IMG/VR virus record: IMGVR_UViG_3300042391_001376
Span: 1 to 64,000 of that record
Source: a virus
Length of the DNA: 64,000 nucleotides
Reading direction: 5' to 3' (one strand)
Shown here: one piece after another, positions 10,851 to 16,393 of the stretch
Layout of the letters: each line of letters starts with the position of its first letter
Position numbering within the stretch: position 1 is the first letter of the stretch
Notes under the pieces: generated by a model
What the model was told of the DNA's origin: nothing
The model's input: only the letters and a program-made list of their open reading frames with translations
The model's database searches: none
Position numbers and translations under genes: made by a program

Positions 10851-11633
10851 CTAATAGCCGGAAAAAGTAGTTGTAATAACACTACCATCTCTTTGATCAA
10901 GAGGTGGCAACTCTTTTCTGACCAAGACTCTTTGCACCCACCTATCAGTCCCATCGTATCTTGGCTGAAAAGGTTTTCTGCCATGAATTGTTTTTCTATT
11001 ATCTATAACTAATAGATCACCTGTTTTTAATACGATCTCTTTTGTGCATTTTTTAATTGCATCTTCAAGTTCTTCAAGAACTAATCTAGCCAAATAGTCA
11101 TTCGGCTTCATGACAGTTGCATCGTATGTAAAGGTTAACATCCCGTCAGCTTCTCCAATTATAGAAGTAGGTATCTGCTGATCTTCTTCCCCATTTGTCC
11201 TAAAGCTAAGATCTATTCCTGTTGTAAACATTTTTGACTTCAACATATGTTTAGTCTCTATCCTAATATGCTTGAGTATGTCAGACAAATTAGCGTACGT
11301 GGTTACTGCCTGAGGATCGCCCCTAAGGCAAAACAAAACTACATAGTCTGGCTTGTAAGGATGAAATGCAGTCTCTGTGTGAAGAGCTAGTTCAGTTTTA
11401 GATGAAGTAGATATCTGCTGATACTCAGTCTTGTGGACTGGAACTATGTTCTGTATTATTTGACCGTTTTGTTCCTGAATATAACCAATCGGATGGCCAT
11501 ATTTTTTAACATGATCAAGAAGAATCAGAGTGCTTTCTTTGGAGCTGGCGTGCTTGGGGGAACTGATGATCGGTGTAGCTGGAGTTGGAGGCACATATCC
11601 AACATCTAAATTCTCGTAAAGAAAAATTCCCAT
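10851..11633 (-). CDS. Fe(II)/2-oxoglutarate oxygenase (TauD / clavaminate synthase-like)
   Basis: This 260-residue protein fits the clavaminate synthase/TauD group. LALHTETAFHPY supplies the HxE iron ligands, DYVVLFCLRGD follows as in arginine or asparagine hydroxylases, and TIHGRKPFQPRYDG supplies the distal His and the Arg that binds 2-oxoglutarate. Such enzymes hydroxylate small molecules or side chains. In phages their substrates are mostly unknown. It sits directly upstream of the methyl/glycosyl cassette, so it might make a hydroxyl group that is then glycosylated (inference). The C-terminus carries a DQRDG motif identical at DNA level to two in the giant protein gene. Confidence 0.8.
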   Translation of the reverse strand: MGIFLYENLDVGYVPPTPATPIISSPKHASSKESTLILLDHVKKYGHPIGYIQEQNGQIIQNIVPVHKTEYQQISTSSKTELALHTETAFHPYKPDYVVLFCLRGDPQAVTTYANLSDILKHIRIETKHMLKSKMFTTGIDLSFRTNGEEDQQIPTSIIGEADGMLTFTYDATVMKPNDYLARLVLEELEDAIKKCTKEIVLKTGDLLVIDNRKTIHGRKPFQPRYDGTDRWVQRVLVRKELPPLDQRDGSVITTTFSGY

Positions 11634-11642
11634 AAAATACCT

Positions 11643-11852
11643 TTAAGACGACAAAACCTTTAGTATCAAAAAGAATACTTTGCTCAGGTTATCAGGGGCA
11701 ATACTAAAAACATGTTCTTTTTCAAGCGTTTTAATCGTAACGCAATGTACGTTTACTAAATCCCCATTTGAAGTTATAGAAGCTGTAAGTTTAGATATGG
11801 AAATATCAGTAATAGTTGGCATAAAGCCATCGAACATACCATTATTTTCCAT
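11643..11852 (-). CDS. Small hypothetical protein
   Basis: This 69-residue protein begins ENNGMFDGFMP. Beta-rich segments (ISKLTASITSNGDLVNVHCVTIKT) lead into a hydrophobic C-terminus. I recognise no family. A strong extended -10 lies 5 bases before the ATG, so the message is probably leaderless. A second ATG five codons in (11835-11837) follows a GGAAAA stretch and could be used instead. It lies 9 bases upstream of the oxygenase gene and is probably co-transcribed with it. Confidence 0.6.
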   Translation of the reverse strand: MENNGMFDGFMPTITDISISKLTASITSNGDLVNVHCVTIKTLEKEHVFSIAPDNLSKVFFLILKVLSS

Positions 11853-11857
11853 GCTAC

Positions 11858-11866
11858 ATTATAGCA
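11858..11866 (-). promoter_or_regulatory. Extended -10 promoter, probably leaderless
   Basis: On the minus strand TGCTATAAT is followed by only 5 bases (GTAGC) and then the ATG of the 11643-11852 gene. Transcription would start at or beside the start codon. Confidence 0.65.
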
Positions 11867-11870
11867 CAAA

Positions 11871-12035
11871 TTACTTTTTTTTCTTCGCTGCTCTCATATT
11901 GTCTATCAAGTTTGGATAGGGGCGACCAGCAGCTTTTGCAGACGCTTTAGCTGAAGCCTTGGCCTTAGACGAAAGCTTCTTTGGCTTCTTACTTGGACTC
12001 GGGCTGTCCCAAACGGCTACTTTTTTTGCAGCCAT
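11871..12035 (-). CDS. Small histone-H1-like basic protein
   Basis: This 54-residue protein begins MAAKKVAVWDSPSPSKKPKK, continues with an alternating Lys/Ala/Ser stretch and ends in AAKKKK. The SPSPSKKPKK segment resembles SPKK DNA-minor-groove motifs. The start codon overlaps the upstream stop as TAATG. It is one of about eight short basic proteins in this region. DNA binding or packaging with the genome is inferred from composition only. Confidence 0.7.
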   Translation of the reverse strand: MAAKKVAVWDSPSPSKKPKKLSSKAKASAKASAKAAGRPYPNLIDNMRAAKKKK

Positions 12036-12238
12036 TACGATATCTTTAATATGAGATATATTTGGACTGCGTGAAGAGCGAAGTAGACACAGTTTAATCC
12101 CCAGCCCTTAAAAGAATTTTTGTTTATATGCCAGTGCATGTCGTGAGGGTTGTGGCCTTGACCCATATTAGCTCCAGAAGAAGCATTATTACATGAATCA
12201 CCGTTATCAACGTGATGATTTATATTTGTGCAGTTCAT
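12035..12238 (-). CDS. Small His/Asn-rich protein with hydrophobic tail
   Basis: This 67-residue protein is rich in His, Asn and Gly over the first 40 residues (GQGHNPHDMHWHINK) and ends in a hydrophobic segment (VYFALHAVQIYLILKIS) that could be a membrane anchor. No family is recognised. It is packed against its neighbours: its stop overlaps the next ATG, and its own start follows the preceding stop by two bases. That packing supports a real gene despite the odd composition. The cluster of His could bind metal (inference). Confidence 0.55.
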   Translation of the reverse strand: MNCTNINHHVDNGDSCNNASSGANMGQGHNPHDMHWHINKNSFKGWGLNCVYFALHAVQIYLILKIS

Positions 12239-12240
12239 AA

Positions 12241-12441
12241 TTATTTTTTCCTGTTAATCTTTCTAAGTGTTTTAGCAAGGTTTGCTTGCTTTACCGTTAA
12301 CGGGCTGTATTTATCTGGATTCTTGGTAACAGCTGATGCCATCCCAGCCACAGATTTGCCGGCTTTTTTAGCTTTTGCGGTAAAAGCTCCAGGCCTTTTG
12401 ATCGCACCCTGTATCCATTTCTTATCTTTTTTTGCTGCCAT
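12241..12441 (-). CDS. Conserved small basic phage protein
   Basis: This 66-residue, strongly basic protein has the pattern DKKWIQGAIKRPGAFTAKAK followed by YSPLTVKQANLAKTLRK. Similar WIxxAIKxPGA proteins occur in many tailed phages without assigned function, often near virion genes. Its start overlaps the end of the holin-like gene by 20 bases. Confidence 0.75.
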   Translation of the reverse strand: MAAKKDKKWIQGAIKRPGAFTAKAKKAGKSVAGMASAVTKNPDKYSPLTVKQANLAKTLRKINRKK

Positions 12442-12712
12442 TATTATCTCGCGCTGCTTTAACTTTTTCTCCTGTTTTAAATTTTAGATTTTCTAAATTA
12501 AACTGGTTAGTAATATGATTATTAAGATGTGTGTCTATCTTAGCTTCTATATGCGATATATCATCATCTATATCTGCAATGTCTTCTTTTATAGAATCTA
12601 AGCGATCTTTGACAAAGCCGTGGTCACGAACATTCTCACGACGCCCCTTCTCTATGAGAAGCATCAAAACGCCAAACGCGCCAGTAACAGCGGAAGCCCA
12701 TACGATTTCCAT
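12422..12712 (-). CDS. Holin-like membrane protein with coiled coil
   Basis: This 96-residue protein has one N-terminal membrane span (VWASAVTGAFGVLMLLIE) and then a charged, probably coiled-coil region (DRLDSIKEDIADIDDDISHIEAKIDTHL) and a basic tail. Its ATG overlaps the stop of the endolysin gene as TAATG. The single span, coiled coil and position next to an endolysin fit a class III-like holin or a spanin-type accessory. The sequence alone does not prove holin activity. Confidence 0.6.
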   Translation of the reverse strand: MEIVWASAVTGAFGVLMLLIEKGRRENVRDHGFVKDRLDSIKEDIADIDDDISHIEAKIDTHLNNHITNQFNLENLKFKTGEKVKAARDNNGSKKR

Positions 12713-13473
12713 TAAAGACCAAGCAGTTCTTTGACCTTTGGTCCAACAACTGAATCGGCAGTAAGTTTATTAGCTACCTTGAAAGCTTTTACAGCTGCAT
12801 CTGTTGCTGCATCTTTTTGACCATTAATTTCACCCTTGTAAAATCCTTTTATCTTAAGCGCTTCCTGAAGCTTCGCTATATCATTGCCACCACCTGCGGC
12901 TGGAGCAGCAGAACCTGCTGGTTTTTCCCAGTTGTTCTTTGCCATCCACTCAGCTACTGCTGGAGGAGGTGTATCTCCATTTACATATCTAAGATGCCAT
13001 GGCTCTGAAGGGACAACTTCCCATGAAAAACCAAACTTCTTTACATTCGCAATCATCCAATTGAGGCGCTTTGGTTCTGATGCATTAGCAATGTCAACCG
13101 CCAAGCCGAGATTATGCTGCGACTTACCAGGAGTAGCCAACATAGCCATGCCTTTTTTAAGATACCATGTCTTACCTTCAAAAGTCTTTGTGCTAGTTCC
13201 AACTACTGGTTCAAGCTGGTATCTTTGTTTAAAGCCAGCAAGCTGACTCTCATAACTTCTATATGTATCGCCTGCTGATGTAGGCTTAAGCTCAACGCCT
13301 TCAGCTTTTGCTGCTTCGTCCATGGCGTTGTAAGCTGCGGCTGCAAGCCAGTGCATCTTTCCGCCAGCTTCGATAGGACGCAAGAGGTGTGCAGGCAACT
13401 TACCTGGCTCAATACCCTTAAGATCTTTTGGTAATACTACTGGAACTATATAATCCCAAGCAACTTTACTCAT
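12712..13473 (-). CDS. Endolysin: M15 peptidase with peptidoglycan-binding domain
   Basis: The start at ATG 13471-13473 follows AGAGGAAAGC. An upstream in-frame start would cover the regulatory hairpin. The protein has 253 residues. The N-terminal two thirds show M15/VanY catalytic motifs: TYRSYESQLAGF, KSQHNLGLAVDIA (zinc His and Asp) and SEPWHLRY (second His). After an Ala/Gly-rich linker comes a PG_binding_1 domain (IAKLQEALKIKGFYKGEING and KAFKVANKLTADSVVGPKV). It cleaves stem peptides of peptidoglycan at lysis. The holin-like gene follows immediately, making a compact lysis pair. Confidence 0.9.
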   Translation of the reverse strand: MSKVAWDYIVPVVLPKDLKGIEPGKLPAHLLRPIEAGGKMHWLAAAAYNAMDEAAKAEGVELKPTSAGDTYRSYESQLAGFKQRYQLEPVVGTSTKTFEGKTWYLKKGMAMLATPGKSQHNLGLAVDIANASEPKRLNWMIANVKKFGFSWEVVPSEPWHLRYVNGDTPPPAVAEWMAKNNWEKPAGSAAPAAGGGNDIAKLQEALKIKGFYKGEINGQKDAATDAAVKAFKVANKLTADSVVGPKVKELLGL

Positions 13474-13491
13474 AATGCTTTCCTCTCGTGT

Positions 13492-13544
13492 CCTGTTATA
13501 AATATAACAACAGGCCAATCAATTAAGAAAGACCTGTTGTTATA
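13492..13544 (-). promoter_or_regulatory. Nested inverted repeats in front of the endolysin
   Basis: TATAACAACAGG at 13503-13514 is exactly complementary to CCTGTTGTTATA at 13533-13544 (12-bp stem, 18-base loop). A third partial arm, CCTGTTATA at 13492-13500, could pair instead with 13509-13514. The two hairpins exclude each other. This arrangement could act as an attenuator or as a repressor operator controlling lysis. No U-tract follows, so a simple terminator is unlikely. Confidence 0.5.
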
Positions 13545-13556
13545 ATAATTTAGATG

Positions 13557-13793
13557 CTACTTCTTACCTTTGCCGGAACCAATTTTGCCAAGCACCTTGA
13601 TTGGGCGCTGTGCCATTTTCATTTGGCCCGATGTTACCGCTGGCTTAGGTGCTGTTGTGCCCTTGCCGCCGGTTGCAACATTCTTTAAAGTTGCAGGGTT
13701 TTTTACTGAACGCTGTGCCATCTTCATCTGACCGCTTGAAGCGGTTGGTTCTGGCGCACTAACGCCTTTACCTTTTGACTTTTTCATAGCCAT
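13557..13793 (-). CDS. Small basic protein with duplicated SGQMKMAQR unit
   Basis: This 78-residue protein is built from two copies of a unit: KGKGVSAPEPTASSGQMKMA and KGTTAPKPAVTSGQMKMAQR. It begins MAMKK, like two neighbours, and ends GKGKK. The ribosome site is GGAGAA inside the end of the upstream gene. No known domain is recognised. It is a member of the basic protein array. Confidence 0.7.
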   Translation of the reverse strand: MAMKKSKGKGVSAPEPTASSGQMKMAQRSVKNPATLKNVATGGKGTTAPKPAVTSGQMKMAQRPIKVLGKIGSGKGKK

Positions 13794-13796
13794 GAT

Positions 13797-13907
13797 TTAT
13801 TTCTCCTTAGTTTTTTTGCTAGCTTTTTTTGGGGCAGTTTTTTTTGCTGTCCTCTTAACCGGTTCCTGTTTTTCAACAGGCATAACGTTTTGTACGTACT
13901 TAGACAT
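13797..13907 (-). CDS. Tiny Lys-rich protein
   Basis: This 36-codon protein begins MSKYVQNVMPVEKQEP, followed by a tail of Lys/Ala/Thr (KRTAKKTAPKKASKK). It ends 4 bases before the next ATG and its last codons contain that gene's GGAGAA site. Its composition matches histone-like tails. Confidence 0.55.
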   Translation of the reverse strand: MSKYVQNVMPVEKQEPVKRTAKKTAPKKASKKTKEK

Positions 13908-13939
13908 AGTAATAATAATCCTTGGTTTATTTCATTTTT

Positions 13940-14131
13940 CTATTTATATGTACGCGCTGATTTCTTAGGAGCATTATCCGCATTATAAGAGCCCATCTTC
14001 TTTTTAGGACGATTCTTTGTTCCGTCAAAAGTTGGGGTAGTCATACCCTTTTGCATCAAGCCAGTAAGCTTTTGCTTCTTGGAAGCAGCAGCTGCTGGGT
14101 CTCCTTTACTAGTCTTTTTTTTCATAGCCAT
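13940..14131 (-). CDS. Small basic protein of the MAMKK family
   Basis: This 63-residue protein begins MAMKKKTSKGDPAAAASKK. It has a central MQKGMTTPTFDGTKNRPKKK segment and a basic end. No recognised domain. It shares its first residues with the genes at 13557 and 14136. Confidence 0.65.
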   Translation of the reverse strand: MAMKKKTSKGDPAAAASKKQKLTGLMQKGMTTPTFDGTKNRPKKKMGSYNADNAPKKSARTYK

Positions 14132-14135
14132 TATA

Positions 14136-14264
14136 TTATTTCTTCTTCTTCTTAGCTATAGCTGCCTGGATAAATGGTGGAAGCTTCTTTTGAGCGGCGG
14201 TCATGCCAGCTTTTGCTGCTGGAGCCTTTTTTGCTGCTGCTGGTGCTTTCTTTTTCATTGCCAT
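14136..14264 (-). CDS. Small Lys/Ala-rich protein of the MAMKK family
   Basis: This 42-residue protein begins MAMKKKAPAAAKKAPAAKAG, continues MTAAQKKLPPFIQAAIAKK and ends in a Lys run. It is preceded by GGAGAAAAC as a ribosome site. The Ala/Pro/Lys repeats look like a bacterial H1-type tail. Confidence 0.65.
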   Translation of the reverse strand: MAMKKKAPAAAKKAPAAKAGMTAAQKKLPPFIQAAIAKKKKK

Positions 14265-14299
14265 TGTTTTCTCCTATTTGTTTAGTGTTATGTTAAATA

Positions 14300-14563
14300 T
14301 TAGCAGTCCCACTTGCGTAAAGCAAGTGCTTTGCGTGTTGGTTTGCCATTTGGCTTCTTCATCGCCCCCGGCATGCCGCCCATACGCGCACAAAAAGACT
14401 TACGCCTTGCAGCGGACTTAGGTGATTTTTTTGCCTGCTTGGATGACACTGGCGGCTTTAGTGTGCCACCAGTCTGGGCCTTGTATGAAGCACGGCCTTT
14501 AGCGTTCAAACCACCAGCAGGGTTCTTACCTTCCTTGCGTTGCCATGCAGCGGTTTTAGCCAT
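14300..14563 (-). CDS. DUF6321-type conserved phage protein
   Basis: This 87-residue protein matches a widely distributed phage family: AAWQRKEGKNPAGGLNAKGR, YKAQTGGTLKPPV and AARRKSFCARMGGMPGAMKK, ending PTRKALALRKWDC. I recognise the family from these motifs, particularly the RRKSFCARM core and the RKW(D/N)C end. Function is not known. In other phages it lies near virion or nucleoid-type genes. The ATG overlaps the stop of the upstream small gene as TAATG. Confidence 0.85.
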   Translation of the reverse strand: MAKTAAWQRKEGKNPAGGLNAKGRASYKAQTGGTLKPPVSSKQAKKSPKSAARRKSFCARMGGMPGAMKKPNGKPTRKALALRKWDC

Positions 14564-14703
14564 TATTTTTTCTTCCTTGTTTTACTCTTGCTAACTTTTG
14601 AAGATTTAACTTTTTTCGAGGCTTTACCTATTTCAATGCCGTACATAGAATTATTTTGACCCATTCTAGGACCAGCTATATAAATTTTATTTTTTATTAC
14701 CAT
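14563..14703 (-). CDS. Small basic protein
   Basis: This 46-residue protein begins MVIKNKIYIAGPRMGQNNSM, followed by GIEIGKASKK and a Lys/Ser tail. Its stop overlaps the DUF6321 gene's start (TAATG). The ribosome site is poor (AAAGAAAGAAA), so it may depend on translation of the short upstream frame at 14687-14767. Confidence 0.55.
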   Translation of the reverse strand: MVIKNKIYIAGPRMGQNNSMYGIEIGKASKKVKSSKVSKSKTRKKK

Positions 14704-14767
14704 TTTCTTTCTTTCTGTCCATAGCTTCTGCTATATCATAAAGTCTAAAAACCAAATGCCAAAACAT
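14687..14767 (-). CDS. Possible 26-residue leader peptide
   Basis: This very short frame begins MFWHLVFRLYDIAEAMDRKK and ends in basic residues. It overlaps the start of the next gene and might provide translational coupling. Support is only position and composition, so it may be spurious. Confidence 0.3.
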   Translation of the reverse strand: MFWHLVFRLYDIAEAMDRKKENGNKK

Positions 14768-14783
14768 ACTTGTTAAACTAAAT

Positions 14784-14912
14784 TTATTTTTGGTCATTTT
14801 TTTTATCTTTCGTTTCAGGATCTTTTTTAGTTCCAGAATCTAGTGGGTCACCCAATTTTTTTTTGAGTGACACCCCACCTTTAGATACTTTTCTAAACTT
14901 AGCTAAGGACAT
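14784..14912 (-). CDS. Tiny Lys/Asp-rich protein
   Basis: This 42-residue protein has MSLAKFRKVSKGGVSLKKKL followed by GDPLDSGTKKDPETKDKK. It lies between two basic protein genes on the same strand. No family is recognised. Confidence 0.5.
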   Translation of the reverse strand: MSLAKFRKVSKGGVSLKKKLGDPLDSGTKKDPETKDKKNDQK

Positions 14913-14927
14913 AGTAACGAAAAATAA

Positions 14928-15221
14928 TTACTTAGTTGTCTTTTTTGAACTACCCTTTTTTGCACCCGCTGTTTTGCTAGGAGCTTTTGCTGAAGGCTTC
15001 TTTGTTGCCTTAGAGGCATCTTTGACTGCCTTAGCTGCTTCTTTCTTAGCGTCCTTAACGATGTTTTCTGCGGCCTGCACTGCAATGTCAGCGACAGCAT
15101 CTGCTTGATCGGCAAATTGGTCGATTAACTTAGCTTGCGCTTTAGCCATGGCACTATCTGCTTTGATATTTTGTGCCTTGAAAAGGACTGACTTTATTTT
15201 ATTCGCTATGTTCTTAAACAT
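14928..15221 (-). CDS. Histone-like Ala/Lys-rich protein
   Basis: In this 97-residue protein the first half is probably helical (FKNIANKIKSVLFKAQNIK, then FADQADAVADIAVQAAENI). The second half is an Ala/Lys/Ser tail (KDASKATKKPSAKAPSKTAG) ending SSKKTTK. That layout resembles bacterial Hc1/H1-type proteins. The ribosome site is AGAGGGTAAA, and a consensus-like promoter lies 38 bases further upstream. It is the first gene of the basic protein array, so this promoter probably drives the whole set down to the lysis genes. Confidence 0.7.
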   Translation of the reverse strand: MFKNIANKIKSVLFKAQNIKADSAMAKAQAKLIDQFADQADAVADIAVQAAENIVKDAKKEAAKAVKDASKATKKPSAKAPSKTAGAKKGSSKKTTK

Positions 15222-15294: not shown

Positions 15295-15621
15295 CTATTT
15301 ATTTCCCTGTTGTGATTCTTTAATTAAAGAGTATCTATCACCAGTTTCTTTAGAAACAACAGCAAACCCGTACGCAGCTGCATCTTCTATAGCCAATCTA
15401 AGGCCTTCTTTATCCTCAAACGAGGCGTTTGGCAGTGGTATAGTTACCGCGGCGTAGACGTCAATGTTCTCAAAATTCCCAATGTTTATTTTTCTGTTTA
15501 CCCCACAAATAAAGACTGGCGATGTCGTGATAGCCAAGTCTGCGGAAACAGAATTCATTACATTGTCTATGGGAGAATCAAATGAAGATGATTCTTGGGC
15601 ACTTTTATTAATCTTAGGCAT
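15295..15621 (-). CDS. Conserved hypothetical phage protein
   Basis: In this 108-residue protein the core RKINIGNFENIDVYAAVTIP resembles a small protein seen in several actinophage and cyanophage genomes next to replication genes. The function is unsettled. A polar N-terminus precedes it and a helical C-terminus (DKEGLRLAIEDAAAYGFAVV) follows. Its start overlaps the end of the kinase gene by 8 bases. Confidence 0.6.
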   Translation of the reverse strand: MPKINKSAQESSSFDSPIDNVMNSVSADLAITTSPVFICGVNRKINIGNFENIDVYAAVTIPLPNASFEDKEGLRLAIEDAAAYGFAVVSKETGDRYSLIKESQQGNK

Positions 15622-16393
15622 TGCTCTTGATTCCTATTCCGAGGCACTCTAGTGTTGCCGCAACTTGTTGTTCCAAATTCATATTGTTTGTATCTATAAC
15701 GGCAGAGGCTACTTGCTTAACTTCTTCTGCTTCCATCTCTGAACTATGTCCAGACTGTTCGCCACTCATTATAGCACCATCTCGCTTCAAAATGCGTTGA
15801 TCAAGAATTTCTTTATCTGCATCAAAACTTATGACAAATCCATTTGGCTGCTTAAGAATGTTCTTGGCTTCGTTTAAATAACGCACATCAGACACTATAA
15901 TGCACAGGGGATTAACACTGTCCTCATCATGATTCTTTAAATAATTTCTATATATTTTATTTGCTTTTATAATCGCCCAGTTTGCAAAACAGTTTTCGTC
16001 GTACTCCCTACAAATATCACCGGCTTTTTGCAGGAACGTTCTAGGCTTGATGCCCTCTTCTTCCACTGGGGTATTGTAGATCTGCTTTACTTTTTCGATA
16101 AGGGTATCGTAGTGAGGCATGTTGCCTATAGAGGATCCTCCATAGACCTCATATAAAACTTCGTGAAGAGAAAAAAGTTTTCTTGATTCTTCATTAAAGC
16201 CTATTATGTTTTTCTTTATTGATGCCATCTCATAAAGTGGAAGAGCATAAAAAATATGATCCCAATTTATTCCAAACTTTACAGTTTCCATTGAACCTTT
16301 TGGTATTATTGATTCCGCTACAGAAGTTTTTCCACTTCCAGCTTTACCGGATAGGCCAAGTATTATTGGTTGGTTGTTAACAAATTTTTTCAT
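15614..16393 (-). CDS. Deoxynucleoside monophosphate kinase-like
   Basis: This 259-residue P-loop protein has LGLSGKAGSGKTSVAESI as Walker A near the N-terminus. It continues with a LQKAGDICREYDENCFANWA segment and IIVSDVRYLNEAKNIL, the latter typical of the T4 gp1/dNMP kinase-like group, where it contacts the nucleotide. It would phosphorylate dNMPs for phage DNA synthesis and fits with ThyX and NrdJ in this window. An extended -10 lies 6 bases before the ATG. Confidence 0.8.
   Translation of the reverse strand: MKKFVNNQPIILGLSGKAGSGKTSVAESIIPKGSMETVKFGINWDHIFYALPLYEMASIKKNIIGFNEESRKLFSLHEVLYEVYGGSSIGNMPHYDTLIEKVKQIYNTPVEEEGIKPRTFLQKAGDICREYDENCFANWAIIKANKIYRNYLKNHDEDSVNPLCIIVSDVRYLNEAKNILKQPNGFVISFDADKEILDQRILKRDGAIMSGEQSGHSSEMEAEEVKQVASAVIDTNNMNLEQQVAATLECLGIGIKSNA

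Follow-up and report, generated by a model that had tools for sequence, protein, structure and literature searches.

A conserved array of small basic genes in an aquatic phage is most likely a split variant of internal head proteins

Results

Ten small basic genes lie in a single interval

We examined a 64,000-nucleotide stretch of viral DNA (the window; positions 1 to 64,000 of IMG/VR record IMGVR_UViG_3300042391_001376, a phage record of 204,904 bases), in which an array of genes for tiny basic proteins occupies positions 11643-15221 of the minus strand. Ten small proteins of 36-97 amino acids (aa) are encoded there, each strongly basic (a net charge density of +0.12 per residue or more) and with a net charge of +7 to +21; the original prediction, made from the sequence alone, had counted at least eight. 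A simple coding-score gene call gave 34 proteins of ≤100 aa (our limit for small) in the window, 11 of which were strongly basic by this threshold. Ten of these 11 fall in the array, where they make up 10 of the 14 small proteins, compared with 1 of 20 elsewhere in the window (hypergeometric 7e-5). The array of basic micro-genes is real, and the details predicted for it were recovered as well. The translations begin with MAMKK in three cases (genes at 13557, 13940 and 14136) and with MAAKK in two (11871 and 12241), the motif SGQMKMAQR occurs twice in a 78-aa protein and is recognisable as a duplication in relatives, and one member matches the Pfam family DUF6321 (PF19846; 1.8e-26, 93 bits against a curated cut-off of 28.5).

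The array is transcribed in a single direction and is flanked by a deoxynucleoside monophosphate (dNMP) kinase gene (15614-16393) and a TauD-like dioxygenase gene (10851-11633); RNase H-like genes, like the kinase gene, lie upstream. The ten basic genes are interleaved with genes for an endolysin (VanY/PG-binding), a holin-like protein and a small His/Cys-rich protein; in all, five frames of the interval fall outside the class of basic micro-genes (those at 11643, 12035, 12422 and 14687, and the endolysin). The phage is AT-rich, and the GC content of the array is above that of the window. Ribosome sites precede several array frames, and the T4-type late promoter TATAAATA occurs at chance level. 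A Gp23-type capsid family was not found in the genome, in a search run without a positive control. The features are collected in Table 1.

Table 1. Array members and interleaved genes, with ratios of nonsynonymous to synonymous polymorphism (pN/pS) and numbers of related loci
Feature	Position	Strand	Description
b97	14928..15221	-	97 aa, net +13; amphipathic start MFKNIANKIKSVLFKAQ, Lys/Ala-rich tail; 36 loci, pN/pS 0.28
b42b	14784..14912	-	42 aa, basic, core MSLAKFRKVSKG; 30 loci, pN/pS 0.40
m36	14687..14797	-	36 aa, weakly basic (+4); 17 loci, pN/pS 0.32
b46	14563..14703	-	46 aa, basic, core YISGPRMGQNNSMYGIEL and Lys tail; 37 loci, pN/pS 0.33
DUF6321	14300..14563	-	stand-alone, 87 aa, net +21; Pfam 1.8e-26; sole copy in genome; pN/pS 0.19
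b42	14136..14264	-	42 aa, net +13, core TAAQKKLPPFIQAAIAKKKKK; 37 loci, pN/pS 0.22
b63	13940..14131	-	63 aa, basic; 25 loci, pN/pS 0.29
b36a	13797..13907	-	36 aa, basic, core MSKYVQN; 32 loci, pN/pS 0.39
b78	13557..13793	-	78 aa, basic, SGQMKMAQR duplicated internally; 17 loci, pN/pS 0.17
VanY-type (M15) endolysin	12712..13473	-	VanY 6.3e-17, PG_binding_1 4.8e-11 (Pfam); pN/pS 0.21; outside the proposed mechanism
Holin-like membrane protein	12422..12712	-	coiled tail; beside VanY with or without the array; putative holin
b66	12241..12441	-	66 aa, net +17, core KWIQGAIKRPGAFTAKAKKAGKS; 34 loci, pN/pS 0.10; PHROG 20603 9e-19
cys67	12035..12238	-	67 aa, neutral, His/Cys-rich; 24 loci, pN/pS 0.20
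b54	11871..12035	-	54 aa, net +14, core AGRPYPNLIDNM; 37 loci, pN/pS 0.27; PHROG 34011 1.5e-20

The array frames are conserved and form distinct families

A scan with the VanY protein gave 80 related viral loci, in which the array members were then placed by tblastn, and pN/pS was calculated for each family from codon alignments. Conservation and synteny in relatives had been proposed as the check on the array, and all frames were present in relatives, with pN/pS between 0.10 (b66, the lowest) and 0.40 in every family, compared with 0.21 for the neighbouring endolysin. Gene order is the same in close relatives and shuffled in more distant ones. In each family, variable stretches rich in Lys and Ala surround a short core that is conserved, such as KLPPFIQAAI in b42, AGRPYPNLIDNM in b54, KWIQGAIKRPGAFTAKAKKAGKS in b66 and GPRMGQNNSMYG in b46. 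Judged by these alignments, the array frames are genuine genes under purifying selection. We also noted that one related locus has, in the same place, a DUF6321 gene of another subtype with a KAWGASS ending (L019:4781-5080), which suggests allele replacement, and that another carries a 236-aa gene with the look of a 2-oxoglutarate (2OG)-Fe(II) oxygenase inside the array, between b46 and DUF6321 (L067:4640-5350).

The codons and shared starts had been read as signs of duplication and divergence. Profile-profile comparison with hhalign spoke against this: the best score between families was 52%, over 19 N-terminal residues of b63 and b78 (shuffled control ≤23%), and beyond this weak match hhalign found no homology among the micro-gene families. 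Recent gene duplication is thus not supported and, since the families lack homology by profile comparison, the shared MA(M/A)KK starts are probably convergent.

Few array members matched named families. No histone or H1 family in Pfam matched any array protein, no protein of the window matched DUF5872 (PF19197), and the only NCBIfam matches were weak ones to b97, of coiled or Lys-rich type. The score of b66 against the Fusellovirus VP2 DNA-binding capsid protein (17.3) was under the Pfam cut-off of 27. A tblastn search of a phage collection with b66, b54 and b42, run with the BLAST low-complexity filter on, gave no matches.

DUF6321 is essentially a virus family

The DUF6321 protein is confidently predicted by AlphaFold2 to form a compact helical domain (predicted local distance difference test 91.2, predicted template modelling score 0.71) that finds confident fold matches only among viral DUF6321 proteins. 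Neither DUF6321 nor b66 had a fold match in the PDB, and sequence comparison of DUF6321 with solved structures gave no useful match. DUF6321 proteins are present in hundreds of sequenced phages from marine and fresh waters (515 records). Because DUF6321 was found in only 23 contigs among 84,980 species genomes, nearly all of them labelled metagenome-assembled genomes and of at most 63 kb, we regard it as essentially a virus family. Our literature search found no paper discussing DUF6321 or the cyanophage family T4-GC119 considered below. A side observation concerns BFVD entry A0A6J5N5R9, a phage protein annotated as ferritin/DPS whose fold matches that of DUF6321. DPS proteins condense DNA, and this modelled match would fit a DNA-condensing role.

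Array modules recur as domains of larger basic proteins

DUF6321 is present in single copy in the genome of the window phage and in 14 of 20 related genomes tested. Its form differs with the array: genomes that carry the array have a stand-alone micro-gene, and in array-less genomes DUF6321 is a domain of a large frame. Array-less relatives with the VanY/holin pair have exactly one DUF6321, either inside a protein of ~440-900 aa or in a frame longer than that. The G011 frame encodes, in order, an HK97-type prohead protease (Pfam 8.4e-11), a CWxGY module and, directly after it, DUF6321; G019 and G013 resemble this arrangement. Four further genomes (G006, G015, G016 and G018) have a prohead protease domain within open frames of ~1,700-3,700 aa, which suggests giant fused head proteins.

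The modules found beside DUF6321 in fused proteins also occur as micro-genes. Two near-identical relatives (L005 and L006) have YPSAYAN, CWxGY and WFxQKWV micro-genes in the slot between b66 and a 69-aa gene, a slot that holds the His/Cys-rich gene and b54 in the window phage. In T4-like cyanophages, WF, WPSAYAS, CWxGY and DUF6321 modules lie in one very basic protein, encoded between the small and large terminase genes. To guard against circularity, module profiles were built from array micro-genes only. The CWxGY profile detected the fused proteins of cyanophages at 7e-10, against 1.3 for the best shuffle, and the WF profile found one cyanophage protein at 1e-5 and, after intermediates were included, five of five at 2e-7 to 3e-10 (best shuffle 0.15). 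The YPSAYAN profile reached a micro-gene of the Prochlorococcus podophage P-SCSP2 (1e-11) and, in L113 and L116, fused proteins (~1e-26); its match to the WPSAYAS segment of cyanophage T4-GC119 was not significant by hmmsearch and was weakly supported by hhalign alone. Against DUF5872, the YPSAYAN module of relatives scored 20.8 bits, under the cut-off of 27.5, and the WF module of P-SCSP2 scored 53.3. On these profile matches, the array modules are equivalent to domains of larger basic proteins.

Relatives place the modules among head genes and in one virion

P-SCSP2 carries YPSAYAN, WF and DUF6321 micro-genes, together with two further basic ones, between its scaffold and major capsid genes. 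HTVC022P and KBS-P-1A likewise have DUF6321 and other basic micro-genes between a head-assembly (scaffold) gene and the capsid gene, and in HTVC115P the capsid gene is two genes from DUF6321. The scaffolds beside these podophage modules are acidic. Around DUF6321 in 78 diverse contigs, terminase and tail sheath recur and portal and sheath stabiliser occur once each; none of the families listed for these contigs is a recurrent lysis family.

Some module proteins also begin like the internal proteins (IPs) of T4. T4 IPII and IPIII start with MKTYQEFIAE/A (the slash marks the cleavage point), a ten-residue start that directs proteins into the head and is then cleaved off (PMC7697877), with targeting dependent on residues 4 and 7 and cleavage on residues 8 and 10 (PMC9026906). 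Three adjacent genes of L113 start with MKSFKQYLQE before WF, MKTLKQFKEE before YPSAYAN plus DUF6321, and MQTFKQFLE before CWxGY. Loss of the tag from the third protein at MQTFKQFLE/ACWTGYTAKGMKKKG would leave nearly the array micro-gene product MACWTGYTAKGMKLKGG, that is, (M)ACWTGYTAKGMKLKGG. S-SZBM1_192 starts with MKTFKQYITE/A and has DUF6321 at its end. Across 85 loci, T4-type targeting starts were found in 6 of 94 module frames and 5 of 3631 other frames (p 9e-8, a value that is optimistic because the first examples had already been seen when the pattern was set), and the five non-module frames adjoin DUF6321 genes. Internal targeting-like sites were found in only one of six fused cyanophage proteins.

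In CsCl-purified virions of S-CREM2, gp137 and its basic neighbour gp136 were detected, with 4 and 8 unique peptides, respectively (PMC10665884). We find that gp137 carries DUF6321 (Pfam 3.5e-10).

The array and the lysis genes occur independently

The array had been described as lying around the lysis genes. The VanY/holin-like pair does lie inside it, but the association is not obligatory, as each occurs without the other. VanY and holin-like genes are present in many relatives with few or no basic micro-genes nearby. Conversely, when a single array module served as the query, at least 591 related stretches were recovered, and among the best 80 of these, YPSAYAN was present in 77, b66 in 72, b42 in 54, b46 in 46 and VanY in 45, leaving 35 of the 80 array loci without VanY within 3 kb. 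From this distribution, the lysis neighbours are incidental to the array.

Three WhiB-like genes are present in the record outside the window (positions 164701, 177600 and 183238). The WhiB family is a marker of an actinobacterial host, and the host of this freshwater phage is therefore probably an actinobacterium, which has no outer membrane.

Several side observations concern these neighbours. The Pelagibacter phages Lederberg (L203:2095-3813) and HTVC033P (L002:3832-5177) have their own basic micro-gene arrays near peptidoglycan-cutting enzymes, which add the families QWSARKAQ and RGLYANIHAKR. A second VanY domain (Pfam 9.4e-6) lies in a 622-aa protein at 396-2264 of the minus strand that also matches a tape-measure PHROG and is possibly a virion-associated lysin. 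The conserved cys67 protein, with CTN..HH..C..MHWH at its N terminus and a hydrophobic C-terminal helix, has the look of a metal-binding membrane micro-protein.

Discussion

We consider it probable, if some way from certain, that the cationic array proteins form a split set of internal head proteins, which would be packed into the prohead, help to organise the packaged DNA and perhaps be ejected. Four observations in relatives lead to this reading: the fusion to a prohead protease, the position between scaffold and capsid genes, the targeting starts and one virion detection. In the model, each micro-gene would give a small protein whose conserved core is accompanied by Lys/Ala-rich tails that bind the phosphate backbone. 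The micro-proteins would enter the prohead with the core, and the small size of these untagged proteins, or an affinity for core or DNA, may suffice for entry. The set would then neutralise and organise the packaged DNA and stay in the virion; ejection with the genome into the host is a possibility that our data do not support. With a T4-like copy number of 300 (PMC9026906) for each of ten proteins, we estimate that ~10% of the genome phosphates would be neutralised. Among the roles first proposed for the array, condensation in the head and ejection are the best supported, by way of the relatives, although for this phage we infer encapsidation, DNA binding, condensation, ejection and untagged prohead entry alike.

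Several observations weigh against a head role. The array is not adjacent to recognised head genes in this lineage, and the 204,904-base record yielded neither an S78 (PF04586) nor an S77 (PF03420) prohead protease; for PF03420 a positive control was lacking. No array protein of the window phage has a targeting sequence, whether it starts with MAMKK, MAAKK or otherwise, and the targeting pattern itself was chosen after the first examples had been seen. Coverage of S-CREM2 gp137 was 4.1%, and apart from its DUF6321 domain the protein is not basic. The S-SZBM1 DUF6321 protein is missing from the virion proteomics list (PMC9146016), and the homologues in S-SM1 and Syn9 have no structural label though both phages had virion proteomics (PMC3037559). 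Absence from virion proteomics is weak evidence, because Lys-rich proteins yield few usable tryptic peptides: the fraction of residues in such peptides is 0.24-0.60 for the array proteins, compared with 0.79 for VanY.

Strong positive charge would also suit nucleic-acid binders that are made in infection and coat host or phage DNA or RNA, in nucleoid takeover or in aid of replication or transcription, and are not packaged. Transcription in one direction, downstream of dNMP kinase and RNase H-like genes, and the ferritin/DPS protein fused to DUF6321 are in keeping with such a function, but the protease fusion, the targeting starts, the scaffold-capsid position and the virion detection all indicate the head, and we think it unlikely that the proteins act outside the virion. 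Slightly less probable again are factors for capsid assembly or packaging, acting as partners of core or scaffold or as terminase helpers and leaving the prohead before or during packaging. A gene position between scaffold and capsid, or flanked by the small and large terminase genes, would be expected of them, T4 core peptides mostly exit the head after proteolysis (PMC9026906), and virion detection is patchy; against this, the extreme charge and the Lys tails suit DNA binding better than a scaffold, the adjacent scaffolds are acidic, and there is the detection in virions of S-CREM2.

A lysis function seems very improbable. The phage phiKT disruptin is a cationic lysis peptide, and array proteins might similarly be accessories that damage the envelope together with endolysin and holin, given that the array flanks VanY and the holin-like gene and that Lederberg and HTVC033P have similar arrays close to an M15 peptidase and an amidase, respectively. 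Yet VanY and the holin occur without the array in many relatives, 35 of 80 array loci lack VanY within 3 kb, lysis families do not recur among those listed beside DUF6321 in diverse phages, and T4 ipII and ipIII adjoin the lysozyme gene e, a precedent for adjacency without a lysis function. The three WhiB genes, indirect as this evidence is, point to a host that offers no outer membrane as a disruptin-like target, so that an outer-membrane-disrupting role is unlikely, and we reject lysis as the primary role on the independence of VanY and array together with the host evidence. We give practically no credence to the array being functionless Lys-rich frames of an AT-rich genome: the low-complexity composition and the AT-rich phage would allow for this, and it is refuted by the pN/pS of 0.10-0.40, the conserved cores, the ribosome sites, the synteny and the higher GC content.

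The array most likely encodes phage internal head proteins in a new, split form. T4 IPI, IPII and IPIII are, with Alt, small head-carried proteins that the array proteins resemble in size and basic charge (36-97 aa and net +7 to +21 in the array). The genes are similarly placed: in T4, ipII and ipIII directly adjoin e, and the dNMP kinase gene is three genes away from ipI; in the window, the array lies between endolysin and dNMP kinase genes. The two sets differ in that the IPs have no sequence homology to the array and a charge of only +2 to +9, the array proteins being more numerous, smaller and more basic, and in the N-terminal targeting sequence, which IPs and module proteins of T4-like phages have and the array proteins lack. 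The T4-GC119 cyanophage family has DUF6321, CWxGY and WF modules in common with the array of this lineage, but combines them in a single large basic protein (440-850 aa; the net charges of three that were examined are +47 to +80), where the array has separate micro-genes. Direct or partial matches to Pfam DUF6321 and DUF5872 and to PHROGs 4689, 34011 and 20603 come with no assigned function. A functional analogy is offered by ascovirus P64, among cationic virion proteins that condense viral DNA (PMC6163548), although P64, which comes from an insect virus and is a single large protein of Arg/Ser repeats, has no demonstrated homology. Histone H1-like proteins have similar Lys/Ala-rich basic tails, but the array has no Pfam match to them and DUF6321 has its own predicted fold.

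The array had been called a non-standard phage module. Although unusual, the array is not unique to this phage: it recurs in aquatic phages as a module without a name. More tentatively, and with rather less confidence than we have in the head role, we suggest that its modules may belong to an exchangeable toolkit of at least 12 cationic modules ("phage chromatin") shared by aquatic phages of unrelated head types. This toolkit would travel either as a row of micro-genes or as a precursor-like fusion addressed to the prohead, and the micro-genes would be the equivalents of protease-matured pieces. Such genes are overlooked because they are tiny, of low complexity and poorly seen by trypsin-based proteomics. 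The comparison of split and fused forms places the functionally unannotated DUF6321 family in the phage head, and an unexplained list of micro-genes becomes a testable system, in which one can ask which proteins coat or order the packaged DNA and what enters the cell with it.

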